Below are positions 10,388 to 12,117 of a stretch of DNA of 64,000 bases, one piece after another; position 1 is the first letter of the stretch; the number at the start of each line of letters is the position of its first letter. Below the pieces are notes generated by a model, which had not been told where the DNA came from, did no database searches, and worked only from the letters and a program-made list of their open reading frames with translations. Origin of the DNA: Rhodospirillales bacterium (GTDB lineage: Bacteria; Pseudomonadota; Alphaproteobacteria; BOG-932; Roseiterribacteraceae); NCBI GenBank assembly GCA_003165335.1, contig PLTD01000060.1:1-64000 (forward strand), given 5' to 3'. Both the position numbers and the translations under genes were made by a program.

Positions 10388-10827
10388 GCGAGGTCCGATT
10401 CTATCATCTGCAGCGCCAGCGCCTGGAAGATGCGCTGCCCGCCTTGCTGGAAAAGGCGCGGGATCGTGGACACAGGATTGTGGTGCAGGCCGGCTCGCCC
10501 GAGCGTGTAAAGGCGCTGGACGCACTGCTGTGGACTTATCGCCCCGAGAGCTTTCTGGCGCACGGCAGCGCGTCGGCCTCTGCGCCGGAACAACCTATCT
10601 GGCTCACTGCAGATGAGGAAAACCCGAACGCCGCCGATGTGCTGATCCTGGTCGACGGGGCGTCCGCCGAGGTCGCGCCCTACAAGCTGTGTTGCGAACT
10701 GTTCGACGGACAGGACGAAGACGCAGTCGCCGCCGCGCGCCAGCGGTGGAGCGAGTATAAGACCGCCGGTCACGCCATCACCTATTGGCAGCAGAGTGAG
10801 CGCGGCGGCTGGGAAAAGCGGGCCTAG
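10384..10827 (+). CDS. holC: DNA polymerase III chi subunit
   Basis: HolC (chi) links the clamp loader to SSB. The homologous part begins SEVRFYHLQRQRLEDALPALL and runs through the conserved WTYRPESFLAHG and PIWLTADEENPN to the C-terminus. The track ORF opens 123 bp upstream inside pepA, which is too long. A TTG at 10384 directly precedes the conserved start and overlaps the pepA stop (TTGA), so I call it as start, 147 residues. Its stop shares the palindrome CTAG with the convergent asd stop. Confidence 0.92.
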   Translation: MSEVRFYHLQRQRLEDALPALLEKARDRGHRIVVQAGSPERVKALDALLWTYRPESFLAHGSASASAPEQPIWLTADEENPNAADVLILVDGASAEVAPYKLCCELFDGQDEDAVAAARQRWSEYKTAGHAITYWQQSERGGWEKRA

Positions 10828-11867
10828 CTCTCCCGTTTCTTCAACAGCAACTCCGCGATCTGCACCGCGTTCAGCGCGGCGCCTTTCAGAAGTTGGTCGC
10901 CGGCGACGAACAACGCTATGGATCGGCCACTTGGGTCGCTCAAGTCCTGGCGGATGCGGCCGACCAGAATGTCATCCTGACCAGAGGCTTCGATCGGCAT
11001 CGGGAAGTGGTTGTTCGGCGCGTCGTCGACCAATCGAACGCCGGGGGCGTCGGCAATGAGCGCACGGGCCCGGTCGGGCGTCATCGGGTTTTCGAACTCG
11101 ACCGTGATCGCGACGCTGTGGGCGCGTAGCACCGGCACGCGCACGCAAGTGGCTGAGACCGCCAGATCCGGAGCGCCGAATATTTTGCGAGCCTCAGCGA
11201 TGACCTTGGACTCCTCGCCGTTATAGCCGGTCGCTGGGTCGATCGTGGTATTATGGCTGAATAAGTTGAATGCGTAGGGGTGGGGTAGGACGGTGTGCTC
11301 GTATTCGCGCCCTTCCAGATAGGCCCGGGTCGAATGTCGCAGTTCCTCCATCGCCGCCGCGCCGGCACCAGATGCTGCCTGGTAGGTGGCGACAATAAGT
11401 CGGCGAATGGGGTTACTGCGATGCAAGGGCCATAGCGGCGTCAACGAGATAATTGCCGCGCAATTCGGATTTGCAATGATGCCCCTATGGCCTTCCAGCG
11501 CATCCGGATTGATTTCGGGCACAACTAGCGGAATGTCGGCATCCATGCGGAAGGCAGAGGAATTGTCGACCACGACTGCGCCGCGCCGGACTGCAAGCGG
11601 TCCGAAATGCTTTGATGGGCCGCTGCCCGCCGAAAACAGTGTCAGATCGATATTGTGGAAATTTTCCTCGTTCAGTTCTTCAACCGCGGTATCCTCGCCG
11701 CGGAAGGGTAAGGTGCGGCCGACAGACCGTTTGGATGCAAACAGGCGCAGCGACGCCAACGGAAAATTGCGCTGTTCCAGGCAGTGAATTAGTTCGATGC
11801 CGACCGCACCGGTGGCGCCGACAATCGCGACGCGGGGGTTCGATAAAGTCTGGTAACTGGCGCTCAT
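10824..11867 (-). CDS. asd: Aspartate-semialdehyde dehydrogenase
   Basis: Asd makes aspartate semialdehyde, the branch point to threonine, methionine, lysine and diaminopimelate. The N-terminal NADP fold (VAIVGATGAVG) is near residue 15, the catalytic cysteine is in IIANPNC near 133, the substrate-binding Q-A-A-S-G-A-G-A follows, and the catalytic histidine region is LRAHSVAITVEFENP. The track opens with GTG at 11870; the ATG at 11867 has the better-spaced ribosome site GGAG. The gene is preceded by a threonine-rich leader peptide and a terminator (separate entries), suggesting transcription attenuation by threonine. Confidence 0.96.
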   Translation of the reverse strand: MSASYQTLSNPRVAIVGATGAVGIELIHCLEQRNFPLASLRLFASKRSVGRTLPFRGEDTAVEELNEENFHNIDLTLFSAGSGPSKHFGPLAVRRGAVVVDNSSAFRMDADIPLVVPEINPDALEGHRGIIANPNCAAIISLTPLWPLHRSNPIRRLIVATYQAASGAGAAAMEELRHSTRAYLEGREYEHTVLPHPYAFNLFSHNTTIDPATGYNGEESKVIAEARKIFGAPDLAVSATCVRVPVLRAHSVAITVEFENPMTPDRARALIADAPGVRLVDDAPNNHFPMPIEASGQDDILVGRIRQDLSDPSGRSIALFVAGDQLLKGAALNAVQIAELLLKKRES

Positions 11868-11875
11868 CACTCACT

Positions 11876-11901
11876 CCGATAATGCGGGCCGATAATGCGG
11901 G
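11876..11901. repeat. 13-bp tandem duplication in the asd 5' leader
   Basis: The 13-mer CCGATAATGCGGG occurs twice, exactly head to tail, between the leader terminator and the asd start. It touches the region just before the asd ribosome site. No function is evident; it may reflect slippage or help space the attenuator from the gene. Confidence 0.7.
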
Positions 11902-11917
11902 TGGGGTGGAGCCAGAC

Positions 11918-11950
11918 AACAAAAAGGCCCCGTCCGACACCGGCGAGGCC
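11918..11950 (-). terminator. Intrinsic terminator/attenuator upstream of asd
   Basis: Read on the minus strand, GGCC-TCG-C...GACGGGGCC forms a GC-rich hairpin (arms starting GGCC and ending GGCC, one bulged A) followed directly by TTTTTGTT. It lies 25 bp after the stop of a threonine-rich leader peptide and about 50 bp before the asd ATG. That is the position expected of an attenuator terminator, since no other upstream gene on this strand needs ending here. Confidence 0.82.
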
Positions 11951-11974
11951 TGTTTGGTTCGTTCTAGCCTGACT

Positions 11975-12055
11975 TCAGCCGAACAACTCCGCACAAGCGC
12001 CACCGGCGGTGGTCTTGGTCGTCGTCGTCGTTTTTTTAAACATGAAGCTGGGCAT
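11975..12055 (-). CDS. Threonine-rich leader peptide of asd (attenuator peptide)
   Basis: This 26-codon ORF, too short for the ORF track, reads M-P-S-F-M-F-K-K-T-T-T-T-T-K-T-T-A-G-G and ends E-L-F-G-stop. Seven threonine codons (ACG x4, ACC x3) fall within eight codons. A ribosome site (TTTAGGA) stands 7 bases before the ATG. The threonine run, the following terminator and the downstream asd gene together match the layout of thrL-type attenuation: stalling at Thr codons under threonine shortage would prevent the terminator. The coding is seen directly; regulation by charged tRNA-Thr is inferred. The leader segment CACCG could pair with CGGTG of the terminator 5' arm. Confidence 0.85.
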   Translation of the reverse strand: MPSFMFKKTTTTTKTTAGGACAELFG

Positions 12056-12117
12056 GGCGCGGTCCTAAAGCGACGACGGACGTTTGTAAAGTCTTCCGTA
12101 AAGAAGTCGGGTCAGGG

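Follow-up and report, generated by a model that had tools for sequence, protein, structure and literature searches.

The window analyzed here, a 64,000-nucleotide stretch of a Rhodospirillales assembly (contig PLTD01000060.1, positions 1 to 64,000), carries on its minus strand a predicted promoter, a short leader ORF, a U-tailed hairpin and a gene for aspartate-semialdehyde dehydrogenase, in that order. This gene is the second asd copy of the genome and is referred to below as asd2. The features of the locus, given as positions in the window, are the following:

10823 to 12109, minus strand: inserted cassette of ~1287 bp between holC and ndk, comprising promoter, leader ORF, terminator and asd2, as delimited by alignment to a congener
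12062 to 12090, minus strand: predicted promoter, with TTTACA (12090-12085), a 17-nt spacer and TAGGAC (12067-12062), a geometry that recurs in 35 leaders
11975 to 12055, minus strand: leader ORF of 26 codons, MPSFMFKKTTTTTKTTAGGACAELFG, with conserved counterparts in relatives
12008 to 12031, minus strand: putative sensing codons 9-16, T-T-T-T-T-K-T-T, read from the sequence, with threonine enrichment of this kind confined to asd and thrS cassettes
12000 to 12012, minus strand: hairpin 1:2, CCACC-GCC-GGTGG, located where the threonine run ends, found in folds of the free RNA and expected when no ribosome is stalled upstream
11993 to 12008, minus strand: segment 2, CGCCGGTGGCGCTTGT, codons 16-21, the 5' half of the proposed antiterminator, which forms a duplex with segment 3
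11938 to 11953, minus strand: segment 3, ACAGGCCTCGCCGGTG, common to antiterminator and terminator according to duplex energies and folds
11917 to 11951, minus strand: terminator hairpin and U-rich tail, -21.3 kcal/mol, with covariation
11874 to 11877, minus strand: Shine-Dalgarno sequence of asd2, GGAG, read from the sequence
10824 to 11867, minus strand: asd2, assigned by NCBIfam profiles, with its ATG at 11867

The asd2 protein scores 424 bits against PRK14874 (cut-off 223) and 394 bits against TIGR01296 (cut-off 324), and on these matches the gene is a bona fide asd. In the leader that precedes it, seven of the eight codons from 9 to 16 specify threonine, within the peptide stretch KKTTTTTKTT. 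The window has 884 ORFs with lengths of 12-60 codons, of which this leader alone reaches at least six threonines per eight residues; no ORF did so in 60 dinucleotide-shuffled windows (~1196 ORFs each). A simple ACG repeat makes up part of the run, as would be expected if a low-complexity sequence had by chance come to stand before a gene that has a terminator-like hairpin; however, the failure of all 60 shuffles to produce such an ORF and the conservation of the leader at 34 asd2 loci, where it is written in mixed codons, rule chance out, and we assign it a negligible probability. The threonine-run leader is real and beyond chance, and the core of the original prediction, a 26-codon threonine-rich ORF (seven of eight codons) followed by a GC-rich hairpin with a T-run and then by asd, is borne out by the sequence and by the shuffles.

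asd2 had been described as a lone gene, which is correct in that no other gene shares its operon; it is not the sole asd, however, since the assembly holds another copy (on contig C77) that is 45% identical to asd2 and matches the asd of a congener. This canonical asd accompanies asd2 without such a leader, both in the window genome and in relatives. The Asd2 group, whose members share 60-75% identity, occurs in a minority of the 386 class genomes, mostly alongside a canonical asd, and the genes next closest to it are cyanobacterial asd genes. In two genomes of the same genus (G001 and G002), both of which are free of the insertion, holC and ndk are adjacent, and the alignment to G001 stops at 10822 and restarts at 12110. 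Because the inserted segment consists of exactly the promoter, leader, terminator and asd2, these elements were gained together as a unit; the alternative, loss of the cassette by both congeners, accounts for the arrangement less simply. On this genomic evidence asd2 is a horizontally acquired second copy. A contaminant contig was ruled out, as purM occurs once and shares 89% identity with its G001 counterpart, and synteny is maintained on both sides.

The leader is present at 34 asd2 loci from many families, made up of 19 of the 28 readable loci of the class, five named records (Acetobacteraceae and Bradyrhizobium MAGs and one Pseudomonadota MAG) and ten further genomes. Typical peptides are MMRFATKTTTTKTTTFGGPARTCA, MFTTTKRTTKTTTAPGARGGVRA and MSKRTQTTTTMTKKTTLRGGLFVMRAA; across the loci threonine is encoded by ACC, ACG and other codons, and conservation of the peptide is confined to the Thr/Lys run and a GC-rich tail. 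The alignment of upstream regions that had been proposed as a check thus shows threonine runs with variable flanking codons and a covarying terminator in relatives; its proposed setting in Sphingomonadales is unsupported, because the order of the assembly is represented here by only five genomes that form a single family. Degenerate leaders also exist (zero threonines at L008, two at L066). When mapped on the Asd2 tree, presence of the leader can be explained by 2 changes (mean of 13 after shuffling), consistent with a single gain and a single loss, the latter in a clade of eight rows with 99/98 support. A threonine leader as a general trait of canonical asd was considered and rejected, since only 3 of 40 upstream regions carry one (L220, L222 and L229); the region at L235 resembles a piece of the upstream gene, and no convincing leader was found at the canonical asd of eight asd2-bearing genomes.

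The geometry of the promoter bears on how the leader is translated. The original prediction had credited the leader with its own ribosome site; AGGA, the sole purine stretch before the leader ATG, instead sits within the predicted -10 (TAGGAC), which ends 6 nt upstream of that ATG. In nearly all of the 35 related leaders the -10 ends 6-10 nt before the ATG and a Shine-Dalgarno sequence is absent, and at this spacing 77% of their upstream regions match at least 8 of the 12 positions of the promoter (0.9% of shuffles). Since the -10 abuts the ATG and this arrangement recurs without a Shine-Dalgarno sequence in relatives, the mRNA of the window leader is probably leaderless, a mode of translation for which rnTrpL of S. 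meliloti offers a precedent among leader-peptide attenuators (PMC10117765).

Downstream of the ORF, the GC-rich hairpin AGGCCTCGCCGGTGTCGGACGGGGCCT begins at 11951 and has TTTTTGTTG as its 3' end; it follows the leader stop as predicted, albeit at ~23 nt rather than 25 bp. The stem covaries in the leader family, with 11 cells altered on both sides among 25 leaders, a value that none of 500 shuffles equaled. Hairpin 1:2 is likewise kept in relatives, as CCACC/GGTGG or CCGCC/GGCGG. As a candidate antiterminator, pairing of CACCG in the leader with CGGTG in the terminator arm had been put forward; this 5-bp pairing exists, but we rejected it as the likely antiterminator, as its leader half would lie under a stalled ribosome and it is much shorter than the duplex available between segments 2 and 3. 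In the window, the latter (CGCCGGUGGCGCUUGU with ACAGGCCUCGCCGGUG) reaches -23.9 kcal/mol (p = 0.005), and none of 60 shuffles offered as good a pairing.

Folds of the RNA bear on the expectation of mutually exclusive hairpins. When the window RNA is exposed from codon 16 onward, corresponding to a ribosome stalled near T12, it folds into the antiterminator, and when it is free, or when the ribosome is placed at the leader stop, it folds into the terminator. The stalled-state fold varies with the 3' end chosen, and a slightly shorter end returns the terminator; therefore, the order in which the RNA is made must be important. Among the cassettes, the minimum-energy fold switches in 7 of 53, only slightly more often than in shuffles (~3 expected), and base-pair probabilities computed for the RNA before segment 4 is made give a modest excess over shuffles. 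Family covariation in support of the antiterminator was not detected in the leader-family alignment (A1), a weak test in which MAFFT shifts the window hairpin by 3 nt.

These structures also raise the possibility that control is chiefly translational, with the position of the leader ribosome selecting a hairpin near the asd start and an SD-hiding hairpin as the output. Most relatives do carry a hairpin over the Shine-Dalgarno sequence of asd2 or thrS2 (a truncated threonyl-tRNA synthetase gene, see below), in which pairing is preserved although the sequences differ (mean z -1.2 to -1.8). Segment 4 is also able to pair with the SD-hiding strand (such hairpins were the best found in L056, L068 and L110), and the U-run is missing in some relatives (L069, L072 and L076-L079). 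In the window, however, the hairpin over the asd2 Shine-Dalgarno sequence is weak (z = +0.96 vs a family mean of about -1.2) and the terminator has a good U-run, and we regard a chiefly translational mechanism as unlikely. Because SD hairpins are frequent and some cassettes have no U-run, a translational layer probably exists in relatives; SD-hiding control is probably a second layer there and not the main output in the window. Directly before the asd2 Shine-Dalgarno sequence lies a direct repeat, two tandem copies of CCCGCATTATCGG (11904 to 11878, minus strand); it may have weakened the SD-hiding hairpin in the window, at a place where relatives carry one.

To extend the comparison beyond asd2, a covariance model was built from 25 leaders and searched across the 386 class genomes. 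Downstream genes were not selected by function, and the model, having been trained on threonine-rich leaders, is biased toward threonine-rich matches. Twelve strong matches precede thrS2, a gene for a protein of ~400 amino acids that has the catalytic and anticodon-binding domains of threonyl-tRNA synthetase but neither the TGS nor the editing domain (L145, L147, L150, L152, L154, L155, L158, L160, L162, L163, L170 and L172; one protein was scanned against profile libraries and the others were recognized by sequence). A representative thrS2 leader peptide is MHRVAHLCTTTTTTTRFGGPDGVVMR. Another cassette (L166) lies before a thrS that is longer and includes a TGS domain, six matches precede other asd lineages, and outside the class thrS2 is again found with a threonine-run leader at L242, L243 and L245. 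The threonine fraction of the leaders is 0.27 before asd2, 0.21 before other asd genes and 0.21 before thrS2, compared with 0.03 and 0.075 before other genes (p = 2e-8); overall, it ranges from 0.21 to 0.31 before asd and thrS vs 0.03-0.075 elsewhere, and threonine runs are absent from cassettes of the same build that precede dapA, DUF1127, GNAT and ABC genes. Lysine makes up 0.10 of asd2 leaders and 0.026 of thrS2 leaders. This difference would be expected were asd, a gene that serves threonine as well as lysine, to monitor lysine too; asd leaders probably sense tRNA-Lys in addition to tRNA-Thr. This match between codons and gene is the strongest evidence for threonine sensing, and the prediction of a threonine-codon attenuator on asd in an alphaproteobacterium gains accordingly, with threonine runs, terminator and promoter recurring at the asd2 loci of many families and the element found also before thrS.

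Several other cassettes were recovered by the same approach. Leaders with lysine codons (SKK, AKAKA, RKKLFALK, VVKWKLF) and few threonines precede dapA-type genes of the DHDPS family (L171, L180, L182, L184, L186, L194, L195 and L200) and constitute a candidate lysine attenuator. Those before DUF1127 genes (L161, L164, L251, L253 and, in the genome of the window itself, L002 at C29:1873-1995, minus strand) share a conserved MTR(F/S)xWAVxGVxR-like end and have no run of a single amino acid. Outside the class, a threonine leader also precedes a homoserine dehydrogenase-type gene, and at three loci of another class in the same phylum (L244, L246 and L247) five to six threonine codons and a terminator precede isochorismatase-family genes, whose connection to threonine is not obvious.

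Cassettes located before GNAT genes (L146, L179 and L183) and ABC-transporter genes (L165, L173 and L189), with peptides such as QTHSGGPSEAIAF and SLHVCILKEAM, possibly respond to antibiotics or stress. Both gene types are typical of antibiotic-induced attenuators, which invites the reading that the asd2 leader, too, senses ribosome-targeting antibiotics or generally slow translation instead of threonine. Some inhibitors stall ribosomes through the context of the nascent chain, and an antibiotic-sensing uORF has a place in this argument, one having been described (PMC12121999). The threonine-rich leaders, however, accompany asd and threonyl-tRNA synthetase genes and not the GNAT or ABC genes, and for asd2 we consider antibiotic sensing very unlikely. 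It is harder still to credit that the ORF encodes a threonine-rich small protein with a function of its own, the hairpin merely ending a short transcript: SEP5 of S. meliloti is indeed a stable tagged small protein (PMC10117765) and peTrpL acts in trans (PMC7298713), but the peptide is unconserved beyond the Thr/Lys run and the GC-rich tail, the codon content tracks the downstream gene, and the cassette moved together with asd2.

We therefore favor, as very probable, control of the acquired second asd by a leader-peptide transcription attenuator whose signal is charged tRNA-Thr. Transcription would begin at the leader AUG or immediately beside it, and the first ribosome would load on a leaderless mRNA. 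With ample Thr-tRNA, the ribosome would pass codons 9-16 and reach the stop, where segment 2 would be covered or refolded into hairpin 1:2, leaving segments 3 and 4 to pair; the resulting 3:4 terminator would halt transcription before asd2. Under threonine shortage, the ribosome would stall on the threonine codons and segment 2 would stay free to pair with segment 3 before segment 4 is synthesized, so that no terminator would form and asd2 would be expressed, adding flux toward threonine.

More broadly, the cassettes may represent an unrecognized family of leaderless leader-peptide attenuators, mainly in Alphaproteobacteria, in which a single RNA chassis is combined with sensing codons fitted to the gene, and at least some members of which would have spread with their gene by horizontal transfer, so that an unregulated copy is joined by a second one that starvation induces; we judge the case for such a family to be evenly balanced. 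The matches suggest a chassis that consists of a promoter abutting the AUG, an ORF of ~25 codons, a GGCCCCGCCGG...GACGGGGCC hairpin and often an SD-hiding hairpin, with codons for threonine and lysine before asd, threonine before thrS/thrS2 and lysine before dapA-type genes. The logic of thr attenuation would thus operate on asd and on a truncated threonyl-tRNA synthetase, in another class and probably with a leaderless start, and the attenuator would travel together with a second gene, horizontally acquired, in one compact unit. Such an arrangement suggests a reason for having two asd genes, one constitutive and one starvation-inducible, and the cassettes provide a natural set, with one chassis and different codons, for testing how the codon set determines amino-acid specificity.

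Threonine attenuation is textbook knowledge for the enteric thrABC operon. Like the window leader, enterobacterial thrL-thrABC (RF00506) combines a short ORF carrying a run of threonine codons, an intrinsic terminator and an aspartate-pathway gene, and it has a competing upstream pairing, of which the window carries a candidate; it differs in controlling thrABC and not asd or thrS, in sensing threonine and isoleucine codons and in having a Shine-Dalgarno sequence, whereas the window leader is probably leaderless and was inserted with a second gene copy. Rfam Thr_leader (RF00506) is the best Rfam match, at 18.7 bits against a cut-off of 55 (E = 0.28), and no Rfam family matched eight related loci; with a score below cut-off and a single asd downstream in place of a thrABC-type operon, membership in that family was rejected. 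In Bacillus, the thrZ/thrS T-box places a second threonyl-tRNA synthetase gene under antitermination in response to threonine starvation. The thrS2 cassettes are parallel in that they, too, concern a second such gene, although the T-box reads the uncharged tRNA directly and without a leader peptide.

The literature searched yielded no threonine attenuator for either thrS or a second asd, with an earlier prediction possible in Vitreschak 2004 or Lopatovskaya 2010 (the latter cited in PMC4833913). The original prediction knew of no threonine attenuator for asd in this group, and this stands except that a Thr/Lys leader has been suggested once before. SEP5 of S. meliloti (Hadjeras et al. 2023, PMC10117765) is a translated sORF with six threonine and three lysine codons that lies in the 5' UTR of a gene called 'aspartate dehydrogenase', which is probably asd; the sORF was proposed as a possible leader peptide and is, according to its authors, conserved only in Sinorhizobium. 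SEP5 is the closest precedent, and the region upstream of canonical asd at L220 resembles it, but its ORF is longer and a terminator, an antiterminator, a second copy, a leaderless start and a link to thrS are undescribed for it. In its probable mode of translation the window leader resembles rnTrpL/trpL of S. meliloti, a leaderless leader-peptide attenuator of an alphaproteobacterium (PMC10117765), which differs in that it senses tryptophan and controls trpE(G).
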